Origin: Flavivirga algicola
GTDB taxonomy: Bacteria > Bacteroidota > Bacteroidia > Flavobacteriales > Flavobacteriaceae
Assembly: GCF_012910715.1 (NCBI RefSeq)
Contig: NZ_JABBHF010000003.1
Span: 248,001-312,000, forward strand
Reading direction: 5' to 3'
DNA length: 64,000 bases
The translations under genes and the position numbers were made by a program. The notes under the pieces are model-generated. The model saw nothing but the letters and a program-made list of their open reading frames with translations, did not search any database and had not been told where the DNA came from. The number at the start of each line of letters is the position of its first letter. Position 1 is the stretch's first letter. Positions 19,166 through 51,016 of this stretch are shown here, piece after piece.

Positions 19166-19308
19166 GTTATCTATCCGTATAATCCCAAAAATAATGCTGA
19201 AATAAATTCAGCTTATAGTTCAGGACGGGGTAGAATTTAGCACCTTCTTTACGCATAAAGGGTTGCTAAGGCTTCATTGGGTCTAATCCCTCCGCCTTTC
19301 TTGATAAC
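19166..19308 (-). promoter_or_regulatory. SAM-I (S-box) riboswitch upstream of metY
   Basis: Read on the minus strand, the element starts GTTATCAAG and contains the conserved S-box core in order: GGAGGGA, GACCC, TGAAGCC, GCAACC, then AAGGTGCTAAATTC. P1 closes between GTTATC (19303-19308) and GATAAC (19166-19171). SAM binding to this class normally lowers expression of methionine genes, here metY, the MetX-AK-HSD fusion and metZ. The element is 143 nt against 107 nt for the copy at 33867; the extra length is in the P4 side, which holds a repeat palindrome (19196-19212). A weak -7-like box (AATATTTG, minus) lies at 19339-19346. The 492-base gap between metY and the next gene holds only this leader. 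Confidence 0.93.
19196..19212. repeat. Short palindrome (CTGAA...TTCAG family), copy 1
   Basis: GCTGAA-ATAAA-TTCAGC lies inside the P4 arm of the SAM riboswitch. Its inner 15 bases recur exactly at 39448-39462 before metF, and a relative, CCTGAA-CTTGA-TTCAGG, follows queA at 60422. Confidence 0.55.
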
Positions 19309-19459
19309 ATTTCAATAAGTGATTGAACTTTGTGAATGCAAATATTCGTTCAGAAAAAGTTAAAATCCTAATTTTTTTTGAAAAATTTTATAAAAACTTT
19401 TTTTGACGGCTAAAATTTATGGTGCCCAATAGGCCATTTTTATTAAACGAGTATACTAT

Positions 19460-33788: not shown

Positions 33789-33866
33789 TACATTTTTCAG
33801 TAAATTATAAGGATAAGAGAAATATAGTTGTTATTTTTGCCCTTAGTTCATTAACGTATTAATATT

Positions 33867-33973
33867 GTTATCAAGAAAGGTAGAGGGAATAGACCCTGTG
33901 AAGCCTTGGCAACCCTTTAACTTTAAAGAAGGTGCTAAATTCTACTAATATTCAATAATATTAGAAAGATAAC
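33867..33973 (+). promoter_or_regulatory. SAM-I (S-box) riboswitch upstream of the split metH
   Basis: The element shows the S-box core AAGAAAGGTAGAGGGA, GACCC, TGAAGCC, GGCAACCC and AAGGTGCTAAATTC. P1 pairs GTTATC (33867-33872) with GATAAC (33968-33973). A -7-like box TATTTTTG lies at 33832-33839 without a clear upstream box. After the aptamer come 157 nt to the metH start; I see GAAAAGT/ACTTTTC (33974-33996) and an AT-rich hairpin near 34090-34110 but no strong terminator, so the mode of control is unclear. The 342-base gap between cysM and metH holds only this leader. Confidence 0.93.
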
Positions 33974-34130
33974 GAAAAGTGTTTCTTTTACTTTTCTTGA
34001 TGACAACATATAGATAAAACGAATATTTGAAAATCAAATAGACGTCAAACTGAATGTGTTTTAGTTTCTCATAATATTTGGATGAGATGATTCTGAAATT
34101 AATTTAGAATAAGGTTTAAAAAGTATTAAA

Positions 34131-46753: not shown

Positions 46754-46783
46754 TTTGATTTCTTAAAATATTATTTACTTTAG
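46754..46783 (+). promoter_or_regulatory. Promoter of the phe/tyr operon leader
   Basis: TTTG (46754-46757), an 18-nt spacer, then TACTTTAG (46776-46783), one base off TAnnTTTG. The expected start near 46789 lies about 5 nt before the leader peptide ATG at 46794, so the leader RNA would begin almost at the peptide. Confidence 0.6.
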
Positions 46784-46793
46784 CCTCATAATT

Positions 46794-46877
46794 ATGACAA
46801 CAACAGTATTTTATACATATTATAACAACTGGTTTTATTTCTTTTTTAGCAAAAGGAACGAGGCGTTGTATGTATAA
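46794..46877 (+). CDS. Aromatic leader peptide of the phe/tyr operon attenuator
   Basis: A 27-codon reading frame, too short for usual gene finding. It starts MTTTVFYTYYNN, continues W-F-Y-F-F-F-S-K-R-N and ends EALYV. It has 5 Phe (6, 14, 16-18), 5 Tyr (7, 9, 10, 15, 26) and Trp13: 11 aromatic codons of 27, including five Phe/Tyr in a row after Trp13. A terminator starts 25 nt after the stop and pheA 112 nt after it. The layout matches E. coli pheL-type attenuation: slow decoding when Phe or Tyr is short lets transcription pass the terminator. Composition and position make chance unlikely, but expression is unproved. Confidence 0.85.
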   Translation: MTTTVFYTYYNNWFYFFFSKRNEALYV

Positions 46878-46931
46878 TTTATAACTATAAATTTTAAATA
46901 TGAGTCTCGATGAAAATCGGGACTTTTTTTT
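46859..46931 (+). terminator. Attenuator terminator with candidate antiterminator upstream of pheA
   Basis: AGTCTCGAT (46903-46911) and ATCGGGACT (46916-46924) make a 9-bp stem with one G-U pair and a GAAA loop, followed by eight T's (46924-46931). CGAGGC (46859-46864), in the leader codons for Asn-Glu-Ala, can pair over 6 bp with GTCTCG (46904-46909) of the terminator's left arm. A ribosome stalled on the Phe codons (16-18) would leave CGAGGC largely free; one at the stop would cover it. The pairing was worked out by eye. Confidence 0.82.
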
Positions 46932-46989
46932 GTTCAACCTTTAGTTGAATAACCTCCATTAAAACGAGGTCTTATAAAAAAAATGAATT

Positions 46990-47817
46990 TTGATTAAAAC
47001 AGTAGCCATACAAGGAGTAAAAGGATCTTTTCATCACATTGTGTCACAACAATTTTTTGAGAAGTCTGTCGATGTTATTGAATGTCTGACATTTGATAGG
47101 GTTGTAGATTCGTTAATTACAAAAGAATGCGATGCGGCTATTATGGCTTTAGAGAATTCTATTGTAGGATCCATTATTCCTAATTACGCTTTAATTGATA
47201 CGTATGGTTTACATGTTGTTGGCGAACATTATTTAGATATTCAACACAATTTAATGGCATTGCCGAATCAACGTATAGAGGATATAGAAGAAGTGTATTC
47301 GCACCCTATGGCATTATTGCAATGTAAGGAATTTTTTAAACAGTATCCCCACATTAAGTTGGTAGAAGATAAAGATACAGCCGAGGTAGCACAGCGTATC
47401 CAAGAAAAAAAACTTAAAGGGGTTGGCGCAATTGCAAGTGTTATGGCCGCCGACATATTTGAATTGGATGTTCTGGCAACAAGTATTCAAACGATAAAGC
47501 ATAACGAAACACGATTTGTTATTGTAAAACGAACAAATTCTGAAGTGTCTGAAAATGAAATCAACAAGGCTTCTGTTAAATTTGAAAGCGATCATAAAAG
47601 AGGTAGTTTGGCAGCAATTCTTAATGTGATGAGCGATTGTAAATTGAATTTAACCAAGATTCAATCCTTGCCAATAATTGAAACACCATGGAAGTATGCC
47701 TTTTTTGTTGATGTTACTTTTGAAAAATATGTGGATTTTAAAAAATCAAAATCCATAATTGATATTATGGGAGAAGGATTTAAAGTATTAGGCGAATATA
47801 AAAATGCTAAATTATGA
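46990..47817 (+). CDS. pheA: Prephenate dehydratase
   Basis: A 275-residue monofunctional PheA that makes phenylpyruvate. The start is TTG 46990: an in-frame TGA at 46984 closes the frame upstream and no ATG lies near. The dehydratase domain (1-180) begins TVAIQGVKGSFHH and has the catalytic T-R-F triplet (174-176). The ACT domain (about 203-275) has NLTKIQSLPIIETPWKYAFF, where the Phe-binding ESRP of other PheA enzymes is QSLP (225-228), so allosteric inhibition may differ. It lies downstream of the attenuator and overlaps the aminotransferase gene by 4 bases. Confidence 0.93.
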   Translation: MIKTVAIQGVKGSFHHIVSQQFFEKSVDVIECLTFDRVVDSLITKECDAAIMALENSIVGSIIPNYALIDTYGLHVVGEHYLDIQHNLMALPNQRIEDIEEVYSHPMALLQCKEFFKQYPHIKLVEDKDTAEVAQRIQEKKLKGVGAIASVMAADIFELDVLATSIQTIKHNETRFVIVKRTNSEVSENEINKASVKFESDHKRGSLAAILNVMSDCKLNLTKIQSLPIIETPWKYAFFVDVTFEKYVDFKKSKSIIDIMGEGFKVLGEYKNAKL

Positions 47818-48959
47818 TTGAAGCTGCTAATAGATTGCAAACGGTAGAGGAGTATTACTTTTCAAAAAAATTAAGAGAAGTAAATTTCCTTATTACTAGT
47901 GGAAAACCTATTATTAATTTAGGTATTGGGAGTCCAGATTTACAGCCGCCACAACGTGTTTTGGAAGCTATAAAAGAAGGGCTGTTGGAACCTAATGCAC
48001 ATAAATATCAAAGCTATCAGGGACTTCCAGAATTAAGAGAAGCTATAACAGGATTTTATAAAGATCATTTTTCGGTGTCTTTAAGTGCTTCCACTGAGGT
48101 TTTACCGCTCATGGGAAGCAAAGAAGGTATTATGCATATATCGATGGCATATTTAAATGAAGGTGATAAGGTTTTGATTCCAAATCCAGGATACCCAACG
48201 TACCAATCTGTTACCAAATTAGTAGGTGCAAAACCTGTTTTTTATGATTTAGATGCAGCAAATAATTGGCTGCCAGATTTTGAAGCTTTAGAACAATTAG
48301 ATTTAAGTCGCGTGAAATTGATGTGGGTAAATTATCCCCACATGCCAACAGGCGCTAAACCTATTGCAAGTTTATTTGAAGAATTAGTAGCCTTTGCAAA
48401 ACGGCATGATATTTTAATTGTTAACGATAACCCATATAGTTTTATATTGAATGAAGATCCAAAAAGTATATTAAGTGTTGAAGGAGCAAAAGAGGTCTGT
48501 TTAGAGCTTAATTCATTAAGCAAGACGTTTAATATGGCAGGATGGCGCGTAGGAATGGTTGTTGGAGATAACAAGCATATAAATAATATTTTGAAGGTAA
48601 AGAGTAATATGGATTCAGGGATGTTTTATGGAATTCAAAAAGGAGCTATTGAAGCTTTAAAATGTTCAAATATGTGGTTTGTAACTTTAAACAGTGTTTA
48701 TAAAAAACGTCGTGATTTGGTTTGGAAATTAGCAGATGCGCTAAACTGTACTTACGATAAAAATGCAACTGGTCTTTTTGTTTGGGCTAAATTACCAGCC
48801 TCAGAAAAAGCTGAAGCCTATATAGATTCGGTGCTTAAAAACAAGCATATATTCATTACGCCAGGAACCATTTTTGGAAGTCAGGGCGAGGGCTATATCC
48901 GATTTTCTTTATGTGCATCAAACGACGTTTTAGAAGAAGCTATAAAAAGAGTTGAATAG
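47814..48959 (+). CDS. Class I/II PLP aminotransferase, probably aromatic
   Basis: A 381-residue fold-type I aminotransferase. Motifs: INLGIGSPDLQPP (34-46), MGSKEGIMHIS, NPGYPTYQS, NYPHMPTG (173-180) and PLP Lys237 in NSLSKTFNMAGWR. It lies between pheA and tyrA, overlapping pheA by ATGA, so it probably transaminates phenylpyruvate and hydroxyphenylpyruvate, or prephenate to arogenate. Aspartate or diaminopimelate aminotransferases are alternatives from sequence alone. Confidence 0.85.
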   Translation: MIEAANRLQTVEEYYFSKKLREVNFLITSGKPIINLGIGSPDLQPPQRVLEAIKEGLLEPNAHKYQSYQGLPELREAITGFYKDHFSVSLSASTEVLPLMGSKEGIMHISMAYLNEGDKVLIPNPGYPTYQSVTKLVGAKPVFYDLDAANNWLPDFEALEQLDLSRVKLMWVNYPHMPTGAKPIASLFEELVAFAKRHDILIVNDNPYSFILNEDPKSILSVEGAKEVCLELNSLSKTFNMAGWRVGMVVGDNKHINNILKVKSNMDSGMFYGIQKGAIEALKCSNMWFVTLNSVYKKRRDLVWKLADALNCTYDKNATGLFVWAKLPASEKAEAYIDSVLKNKHIFITPGTIFGSQGEGYIRFSLCASNDVLEEAIKRVE

Positions 48960-49030: not shown

Positions 49031-49058
49031 CTCTTCTTTGGAGAGGGTTAGGGCAAGG
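49031..49058. repeat. C-rich/CTTT/G-rich palindrome, copy 3
   Basis: CTCTT-CTTTGG-AGAGGG followed by TTAGGGCAAGG, 3 bases before the tyrA ATG. It shows the same plan as copies at 25268 and 27602. Confidence 0.5.
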
Positions 49059-49061
49059 AAA

Positions 49062-49913
49062 ATGAAAAATATATACATTATAGGCGTTGGATTAATAGGT
49101 GGTAGTCTTGCTATAGATATAAAAAAGAACGATCCAGAAGTGGTTATTCATGGTATTAGCAGGAAGCAAACAACGTTAGATGAAGCACTGTCACTTAAAT
49201 TAATTGATAAAAAAGCAACGCTAGATGATATAGGAAATGCCGATTTGGTCATTATATCCATCCCCGTAGATGCTACAGTAAAATTGTTACCAACTATTTT
49301 AGATAAGATTTCAGATTCTGGATTAGTTGTGGATGCAGGATCTACCAAAGTAGATATATGTAAAGTTATTGAAGATCATCCTAAGCGTAGAAATTTTTTA
49401 GCGATGCATCCTATTGCTGGAACGGAACATTCGGGACCTGGTGCTGCAATTCCTAGCTTGTTTAAAGGCAAAACAAATATTGTTTGCGAAGTTGAAAAAA
49501 CAGCATTTAAACTTCAAGAAAAAGCCTTAAAGCTTTTTGCAGATATTGGGATGCGTATGCGTTATATGAACCCTGAGGCACACGATAAGCATATAGCATA
49601 TATGTCACATTTATCGCATATAAGCTCTTTTATGTTGGGAAAAACCGTGATAGAGAAGGAGAAGAATGAGCGTGATATTTTTGATATGGCGGGTAGTGGA
49701 TTCGCTTCTACGGTTCGTCTGGCAAAAAGCTCGCCAGAAATGTGGACTCCCATTTTTAAGCAAAACAAAGAAAATGTCATTGAAACTTTAGAAGAGTATA
49801 TCAATAACCTAAGACAGTTTAAGGAACTTATGGAAAAAGATGACTTTGAAGAAGTTTATAATGAAATGAAAAATACGAATCATATAAAACAAATTTTAAA
49901 CGGAATAGCTTAA
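49062..49913 (+). CDS. tyrA: Prephenate dehydrogenase
   Basis: A 283-residue TyrA from ATG 49062; a TTG at 49038 would read through the repeat. It has the NAD motif IIGVGLIGGSL (6-16), DAGSTKVD, the substrate block HPIAGTEHSGPGAA, HDKHIAYMSHLSH and DMAGSGFASTVRLA. It oxidatively decarboxylates prephenate to hydroxyphenylpyruvate (or arogenate to tyrosine). It has no chorismate mutase domain; that activity is in the next gene, which starts 20 nt later. Confidence 0.95.
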   Translation: MKNIYIIGVGLIGGSLAIDIKKNDPEVVIHGISRKQTTLDEALSLKLIDKKATLDDIGNADLVIISIPVDATVKLLPTILDKISDSGLVVDAGSTKVDICKVIEDHPKRRNFLAMHPIAGTEHSGPGAAIPSLFKGKTNIVCEVEKTAFKLQEKALKLFADIGMRMRYMNPEAHDKHIAYMSHLSHISSFMLGKTVIEKEKNERDIFDMAGSGFASTVRLAKSSPEMWTPIFKQNKENVIETLEEYINNLRQFKELMEKDDFEEVYNEMKNTNHIKQILNGIA

Positions 49914-49933: not shown

Positions 49934-51016
49934 ATGGAAAATAAAAAAGAAATGAGAAACTGGTTGGATGCGTTAAATTTAGATCATCCTTTGGTTATAG
50001 CAGGACCTTGTAGTGCTGAAACAGAAGAGCAAGTATTAAAAATTGCTCATGAGTTAAAAGACACAGATGTTAACTATTTTAGAGCCGGTATTTGGAAACC
50101 AAGAACAAGACCAGGAATGTTTGAAGGTGTTGGAGCTTTAGGTTTAAAATGGCTACAAAAAGTAAAAGAAGAAACAGGCATGAAAACCTGTACGGAAGTA
50201 GCAAATGCTGCCCATGTGAAATTAGCTTTAGAGCATGATGTTGATTTATTATGGATTGGAGCGCGTTCTACAGTGAGTCCGTTTATCATGCAAGAAATTG
50301 CAGATGCTTTAGAAGGAACAGATAAACCTGTGCTGATAAAGAATCCTGTAAATCCAGATTTATCTTTATGGTTAGGTGGTATAGAGCGAATATATAAAGC
50401 AGGTGTTAAAAATATTGGAGCTATACACAGAGGGTTTTCAACCTACCAAAAAACCAAGTATAGAAACATTCCAGAATGGCAATTAGCTATCGAATTTCAA
50501 AATAAATTTCCAGATATCCCTTTAATTTTAGACCCATCTCATATTACAGGAAATAGAGAGATGATTTTTGATGTATCTCAAACAGCTCTAGATTTAAATT
50601 ATGATGGGCTTATGATTGAAACACATTACGATCCTGAAAATGCATGGAGTGATGCTGCACAACAAGTTACACCTAGTACTTTAGTGCAAATTATGAAAGA
50701 TCTTAAGATTAGAAAAGAGACAGATGCAGAAGCAGAATATAACAATGCATTAAATAATTTAAGAGCACAAATTGATGTTGTTGATAATGATATTATTAAC
50801 TTATTAGGAAAACGTATGGTAGCAGCAGATGGTATAGGAGCACTTAAAAAGAAAAAAAATGTTGCTGTTTTACAATCTAAACGCTGGAATGAGATTTTAG
50901 GAAAAATGGTTTTAGAAGGACAAGAGCACGGACTTAGTGAAGAGTTTATCTTGAGAATGTTTAAGGCGATTCACCAAGAATCGATTAATCATCAAGAGAA
51001 GATTATTAACGGCTAA
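49934..51016 (+). CDS. DAHP synthase / chorismate mutase fusion
   Basis: A 360-residue protein. Residues about 10-260 are a type I-beta DAHP synthase (VIAGPCSAET, FRAGIWKPRTRPGMFEG, WIGARSTVSPF, PLILDPSHITGNR), which starts the shikimate pathway. Residues about 265-355 are an AroQ-type chorismate mutase (NLRAQIDVVDNDIINLLGKR; KSKRWNEIL), which turns chorismate to prephenate. In related enzymes the mutase domain also mediates prephenate inhibition of the synthase. It ends the phe/tyr operon; a clear terminator follows. Confidence 0.95.
   Translation: MENKKEMRNWLDALNLDHPLVIAGPCSAETEEQVLKIAHELKDTDVNYFRAGIWKPRTRPGMFEGVGALGLKWLQKVKEETGMKTCTEVANAAHVKLALEHDVDLLWIGARSTVSPFIMQEIADALEGTDKPVLIKNPVNPDLSLWLGGIERIYKAGVKNIGAIHRGFSTYQKTKYRNIPEWQLAIEFQNKFPDIPLILDPSHITGNREMIFDVSQTALDLNYDGLMIETHYDPENAWSDAAQQVTPSTLVQIMKDLKIRKETDAEAEYNNALNNLRAQIDVVDNDIINLLGKRMVAADGIGALKKKKNVAVLQSKRWNEILGKMVLEGQEHGLSEEFILRMFKAIHQESINHQEKIING

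Follow-up and report, generated by a model that had tools for sequence, protein, structure and literature searches.

A putative leader-peptide attenuator rich in phenylalanine and tyrosine codons precedes the pheA operon of Flavivirga algicola and other Flavobacteriaceae

The stretch of the Flavivirga algicola genome analyzed here comprises 64,000 nucleotides (nt) (RefSeq assembly GCF_012910715.1, contig NZ_JABBHF010000003.1, positions 248,001 to 312,000 of the forward strand); it is hereafter called the window and is numbered from its first letter. Its plus strand carries an operon for the synthesis of phenylalanine and tyrosine, preceded by a leader region that we propose to be a ribosome-mediated attenuator. 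The first gene, pheA, encodes a prephenate dehydratase with a TTG start (46990–47817; Pfam PF00800). It is followed by a class I/II aminotransferase (47814–48959; PF00155), the prephenate dehydrogenase gene tyrA (49038–49913; PF02153 and PF20463) and a DAHP synthase fused to a chorismate mutase (49934–51016; PF00793 and PF01817). These Pfam matches agree with the operon proposed in a first-pass annotation of this DNA, which had also read the region upstream of pheA as a leader-peptide attenuator.

A -33 element TTTG (46754–46757) and a -7 box TACTTTAG (46776–46783) of the TAnnTTAG type can be read directly from the plus strand with a spacer of 18 nt, where the first-pass annotation had placed a promoter. 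If the -7 box lies at -12 to -5 relative to the start, as given in PMC9723704, transcription is predicted to begin at about 46788, with a 5′ untranslated region (UTR) of 6 nt. The ATG-initiated leader peptide frame is found at 46794–46877 of the same strand (MTTTVFYTYYNNWFYFFFSKRNEALYV, stop codon at 46875–46877). As annotated before, aromatic codons account for 11 of its 27 codons, namely five F, five Y and one W (F6, Y7, Y9, Y10, W13, F14, Y15, F16, F17, F18 and Y26). The putative control codons W13 to F18 (46830–46847) contain F-Y-F-F-F directly 3′ of Trp13. This short frame, predicted to be translated, is thus rich in codons for the amino acids made by the operon. Because the operon makes both Phe and Tyr and includes DAHP synthase, it is reasonable that the leader would sense both.

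None of 200 shuffled sequences folds as well as the 166-nt leader (z -4.61). When its parts are folded separately, three stems appear that exclude one another: a protector (regions 1 and 2), an antiterminator (regions 2 and 3) and a terminator (regions 3 and 4), all on the plus strand and recovered in the alignment described below. Region 1 (46811–46826) is the 5′ arm of the protector, UUAUACAUAU...AAC. Region 2 (46859–46882), the 5′ arm of the antiterminator, consists of CGAGGC (46859–46864), GUUGUAU... and AAUUUAU, and its segment 46865–46877 doubles as the 3′ arm of the protector. Region 3 (46887–46909), AUAAAUU...AUAUGA-GUCUCG, is the 3′ arm of the antiterminator. In the protector, UUAUACAUAU (46811–46820) pairs with GUAUGUAUAA (46868–46877) and AAC pairs with GUU, which joins the early Tyr-Thr-Tyr codons to the end of the leader frame; the whole 104-nt part has a predicted energy of -18.3 kcal/mol. 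The antiterminator (-13.9 kcal/mol) combines CGAGGC/GUCUCG with an A+U-rich stem including AAUUUAU/AUAAAUU. The terminator hairpin (46902–46925) has a core GTCTCGAT-GAAA-ATCGGGAC at 46904–46923, reaches 9–10 base pairs (bp) with its flanking bases, and runs into eight T (46924–46931, by direct reading); it was also the one terminator found by a dedicated search in which 0.2 were expected. A terminator therefore stands between the leader and the first structural gene, the antiterminator excludes it, and the protector excludes the antiterminator. The 9-bp stem with its GAAA loop and eight T had been recognized in the first reading, as had the pairing of CGAGGC with GTCTCG; the inner antiterminator stem (AATTTAT/ATAAATT) and the protector make the pairing fuller than was described there.

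We compared this region with related loci, defined as the best 80 of at least 575 stretches encoding a pheA relative in a public genome collection; among the matches listed, the closest named relatives by pheA protein are Flavivirga species. A leader frame and a terminator precede pheA in 79 of the 80, the exception (L110) having just 150 nt of upstream sequence. A TAnnTTAG box is located within 160 nt 5′ of all 80 leaders, and the predicted 5′ UTR measures 5–15 nt in 75 of them and exactly 6 nt in 44. Alignment A1 contains 78 distinct leaders from these close relatives, chosen on the presence of FFF, which excluded just L110 among the 80 loci; a Y precedes FFF in 77 of its rows. The pairing of the terminator is kept in 780 of 780 cells, that of the outer 6-bp antiterminator in 467 of 468, that of the whole antiterminator in 90.2%, and that of the protector in 96.2% of 981 cells. 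When the partners were slid by 1–3 columns, these values reached at most 56.0% for the terminator, 50.3% for the whole antiterminator and 61.9% for the protector. Folded individually, 76 of the 78 leaders form five or six of the six outer antiterminator pairs; the two zeros (L080 and L084) stem from a motif search that started at an earlier AGAGA. In 75 of 80 leaders, region 2 lies 20 nt past the first nucleotide of FFF. Given the known size of the ribosome footprint, this spacing means that a ribosome stalled in the aromatic core would leave region 2 mostly free and that one standing at the stop codon would cover it. The geometry of the leader is thus compatible with control by the ribosome.

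The coding and pairing parts of the leader appear to be separable. In six relatives (L051, L052, L055, L056, L060 and L073) the frame stops just after the aromatic core, at 18–19 codons, and the downstream RNA is retained, a natural split of the peptide and RNA roles in which the predicted pairing RNA is kept without being coding. More generally, the C-terminal residues differ among leaders (KRNEALYV, KEIETLYV, or an end of the frame after FFFS), whereas the RNA pairing persists.

Conservation was then assessed in a family set of 191 upstream regions, consisting of the window, the 80 loci and 110 further genomes, with near-duplicates kept. Under the rule of a 14–45 codon frame with at least seven aromatic codons and a terminator 5–75 nt past its stop, 184 of the 191 regions qualify. 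In five dinucleotide shuffles of 188 upstream regions, the same rule accepted 0, 1, 0, 0 and 0; among 284 chunks cut from the window it accepted 2. Neither of these two is the pheA leader, which is split by a chunk boundary at 46800. A chance frame was rejected on these controls. Among the seven misses, two contigs end too early (L110 and G048), G035 offers 382 nt, and the leader lies farther upstream in G013, G080 and G128; the seventh, G023, is considered below. Some of the 184 leaders are individually weak, for example G151, G064 and G004. A TAnnTTnG box is present within 45 nt 5′ of 163 of the 184, versus 10.6% of shuffles. Of the 90 genus-level leaders that have a nearby box, 54 have a predicted 5′ UTR of 12–15 nt, so the near-leaderless start appears to be a property of Flavivirga's clade; the first-pass estimate of about 5 nt was close to the value predicted for this genome.

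Per-codon rates over the 184 leaders are.221 for F,.152 for Y and.024 for W, against.037,.028 and.012 in the four proteins of the operon; selection on at least seven aromatic codons inflates the sum of these leader rates, not the split among F, Y and W. At least two Phe and at least two Tyr codons occur in every one of the 184, and a Trp codon in 113 (72 of 104 in the genus-level set). Phe and Tyr are therefore constant in the codon set, and Trp, whose sensing the first-pass annotation had considered possible along with that of Tyr, is optional; a sensing role for Trp is a suggestion only.

Covariation provides the strongest link between the end of the frame and the terminator. The terminator arm takes different forms among genera (GTCTCG, GTCCCG, GTCCTG, GTTCCG, CCCGG, GCCTCG, GCCTTG), and the stretch directly 3′ of the aromatic codons follows it. 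In the family set, 172 of the 184 leaders have a native stem that scores above the average for swapped arms. In 104 genus-level regions the native mean stem score is 15.66 versus 12.53 (standard deviation 0.27) after permutation of the arms, a procedure that leaves the relatedness of the genomes in place, and none of 300 permutations reaches the native value. The same holds for the 58 regions without a GTCTCG arm (15.68 versus 13.32; 0 of 300). The exact Watson-Crick complement of the arm is found for GTCTCG in 21 of 46 regions, GTCCCG in 13 of 24, GTCCTG in 2 of 14, CCCGG in 5 of 5 and GCCTCG in 1 of 1; it is found in 0 of 4 for GTTCCG, three of which pair through G-U, and in 0 of 1 for GCCTTG. 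We take this covariation of region 2 with the terminator arm as the decisive evidence for the predicted antiterminator. For the protector, two-sided changes occur in nine cells of A1, including U-A to C-G in six sequences at columns 21/81, with a covariation score reached by 0 of 500 shuffles. The alignment of the region upstream of pheA across Flavobacteriaceae, which the first-pass annotation had proposed as a check, thus reveals conservation of the aromatic codons, the terminator pairing and the antiterminator pairing alike.

Outside the family, we surveyed 149 genomes of the class that are at least 90% complete. A pheA relative is present in 41, of which 37 lie outside Flavobacteriaceae (pheA of L224–L252 was located by tblastn). 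We judged 22 of these 37 loci to carry a putative aromatic leader, a terminator and a complementary segment, a count made under looser terminator rules and with no shuffled control behind it. They belong to families f3, f7, f14, f16, f17, f31, f32, f35, f39, f48, f55 and f61. All 22 leaders contain at least two F and at least two Y, and six contain W. Three further loci are doubtful (L253, L259 and L261).

Several observations weigh against an attenuator at this position. G023 has no leader in the 1450 nt upstream of pheA, and 12 of the 37 loci outside the family have none either (the frame of L257 is spurious). In 12 of 184 family leaders the native stem does not exceed the mean of swapped arms. 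Within A1, the whole antiterminator has no two-sided changes, and 426 to 500 of 500 shuffles reach its observed values; the covariation of region 2 emerges in the wider set only. The terminator covariation in A1 likewise equals that of its shuffles. For the protector, the number of covarying pairs (3) is reached by 68 and the number of pair types (12) by 51 of 500 shuffles. Codon positions 1, 2 and 3 of the leader frame vary about alike (.140,.209 and.197); there is no third-position excess, and coding selection is therefore not demonstrated in that way. Gaps in the frame are multiples of three in 39 of 39 cases, a count that is partly circular, as the frame guided the choice of start.

Taken together, we consider that a ribosome-mediated transcriptional attenuator of the trpL/pheL type controls the pheA-aminotransferase-tyrA-DAHP synthase/chorismate mutase operon, with a probability of about 0.93 on sequence evidence. 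The parts, their conservation and the way in which region 2 covaries with the terminator arm are observed, and the leader-peptide attenuation first proposed gains from them the complete classical 1:2, 2:3 and 3:4 scheme. The start site, the ribosome footprint, the stalling and the starvation response enter the following scheme as predictions. Transcription would begin at about 46788, so that a ribosome loads on the leader almost at the end of the RNA. When Phe-tRNA and Tyr-tRNA (here perhaps also Trp-tRNA) are charged, the ribosome would reach the stop codon and cover region 2, and the terminator with its T-run (46902–46931) would form. When charged tRNAs are scarce, the ribosome would stall in the aromatic codons 5′ of region 2 and mask region 1; region 2 could then pair with region 3, no terminator would form and the operon would be read. 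In the absence of translation, the 1:2 and 3:4 hairpins would form together and transcription would stop. The aromatic genes would then very probably be switched on only upon shortage of those amino acids.

Other explanations deserve consideration. The RNA could be a metabolite- or tRNA-binding switch, that is a riboswitch or a T-box, beside which the short frame is incidental; at first sight, its structured leader and terminator would present a similar picture. We consider this very improbable. In the pheA leader region no family of Rfam 15 (leader, T-box, riboswitch or RF01692) matches at its gathering score, and a relaxed scan (E up to 1) gives three matches, all on the minus strand and far below threshold, the best with E 0.0012 and 24.9 bits versus a gathering score of 114. 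The candidate was rejected on this lack of a match at curated scores; moreover, the conserved signal is the aromatic frame itself, found in 184 of the 191 family regions. Alternatively, the frame could be a functional small peptide or a small gene with its own terminator, with pheA transcribed without attenuation from a promoter of its own. Such a short gene, having both a promoter and a terminator, would indeed be self-sufficient, but it would have no need for a region 2 that covaries with the terminator arm, nor for an RNA pairing that outlasts changes in the C-terminal residues. In addition, the T-run lies at most 12 nt from the first possible in-frame start codon of pheA in 91 of the 184 regions, and this leaves little space there for a promoter past the terminator. 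A second promoter was rejected on the little room in these 91 loci; for the F. algicola genome it is compatible with the data. We hold the small-gene explanation to be highly unlikely.

It could also be asked whether the same RNA switch senses a general slowing of translation or the arrest of a nascent peptide, of which TnaC and ErmC are examples, rather than the charging of aromatic tRNAs. A stall anywhere 5′ of region 2 would antiterminate by identical RNA logic, and this possibility is not fully exclusive of aromatic attenuation, the RNA mechanics being common to both. However, aromatic codons make up 40% of the leader codons, and F, Y and W replace one another between genera and between families, a pattern that does not point to a fixed arrest motif. 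Other leaders of this genome carry codons matching their operons. Upstream of hisG (MNFIQLHHHFHICSQAK), trpE (MNTILNNTWWWSFRNLRS) and ilvD (MKKQILNIVSFIVIVISSQR), leaders with His, Trp and Ile/Val codons, respectively, are followed by a terminator; no convincing leader was seen upstream of the homoserine dehydrogenase genes checked alongside hisG and trpE. Sensing of something other than aromatic tRNA charging is thus very unlikely in our opinion.

The nearest known counterpart is the enterobacterial pheA leader (pheL), which combines a Phe-rich leader peptide with a protector, an antiterminator and a terminator. The Flavivirga leader shares with it a codon-rich leader peptide, these three structures and the position before pheA. 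It differs in that every family leader found combines Phe with Tyr codons, often joined by Trp, that the operon also includes tyrA and DAHP synthase, that no Rfam family matches the leader, and that it has a Bacteroidota-type promoter with, in Flavivirga, a very short predicted 5′ UTR. The first-pass annotation cited leader-peptide attenuation as known in enterics; this is true but understated, since it has been placed in Bacteroidota as well. Bacteroid-trp (RF01692) appears in Table 1 of PMC2864571, and the F. algicola trpE leader sits within a match to this family (58.7 bits). Bacteroid-trp is likewise a leader-peptide RNA of the same phylum, but with Trp codons and trp genes, and the pheA leader does not match it. 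For Flavobacterium psychrophilum, the consulted text of PMC9723704 (2021) describes strong clues for leader-peptide attenuation before amino-acid operons and 5′ elements upstream of pheA, hisG and others that recur in other genera and match no Rfam family. The conserved element before pheA resembles ours, a comparison made by description and not by sequence; this text gives no anatomy, codons, pairings or presence outside the family. Leader-like short frames are also mentioned for Bacteroides thetaiotaomicron in PMC7366714. Among the papers listed by our searches and in the text consulted, we saw no description of how a pheA attenuator is built or how widely it occurs in the class. The attenuation mechanism itself is thus already known, also in Bacteroidota, and the pheA leader is a well-conserved further case.

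Some other features were noticed around these leaders. The apparent TTG start of pheA (46990) overlaps a four-codon ATG frame at 46983–46997 (ATG AAT TTT GAT TAA), and many close relatives (uncounted) likewise have a TTG where the pheA match begins. Between the T-run and pheA, positions 46932–46975 of the window hold two more small inverted repeats (TTCAACCTTTAGTTGAA and ACCTC...GAGGT); similar ones occur in several Flavivirga relatives, and they are impossible in loci where pheA directly adjoins the T-run. The only Rfam matches at the gathering score in the window are two SAM riboswitches (RF00162), at 33865–33975 on the plus strand (89.6 bits) and at 19210–19310 on the minus strand (61.6 bits). 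A SAM-II long-loop riboswitch (RF01726; L271:867–920, minus strand) lies just 5′ of the ilvD leader region, on the opposite strand.

In four related loci (L075, L077, L082 and L091; a remnant in L078), an insert of about 85–90 nt is located between the promoter and the start, exactly before the ATG of the pheA leader. Its layout is ATGAARC-stem-...-stem-GTTGCATGT..., followed by ATG or GTG, and the stem halves vary in step among the pheA inserts. Similar elements in other Flavobacteriaceae (L283, L284, L302, L305, L306, L309, L311, L314, L317, L319 and L321) adjoin an ATG that is mostly the start of an unrelated gene. In 11 of the 12 matches viewed, the ATG comes 38–39 nt past the point where the GTTGCATGT-like motif starts, with L308 deviating, and six of seven matches viewed in genome G370 have the shape of the insert. 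When one insert was used as the query, three of four genomes each gave a single matching place; a pattern search of 397 genomes gave many chance-like matches. The insert has no Rfam match at curated scores, with none of note in a further scan, and a literature search on it found nothing relevant. The insert may represent a small 5′ UTR element, mobile or repeated, with start codons as its target.

On the strength of the leaders judged present in 22 of the 37 loci outside Flavobacteriaceae, we lean towards the view that an attenuator with Phe and Tyr, and often Trp, codons is an old trait shared within the class, one that reads the charging of several aromatic tRNAs and works without a Shine-Dalgarno sequence from an almost leaderless start. 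If this is true, transcription and translation would be tightly coupled at these leaders. To our knowledge, such coupling has hardly been studied in Bacteroidota, and the control of amino-acid synthesis in this phylum is poorly described compared with enterics and Bacillus. The attenuator may account for the short unannotated frames before pheA. The leader would also lend itself readily to assaying how transcription and translation are coupled where initiation proceeds without Shine-Dalgarno sequences, and a conserved, easily recognized attenuator at the gate of the aromatic pathway would allow the regulation of this pathway to be predicted across a large group of genomes.
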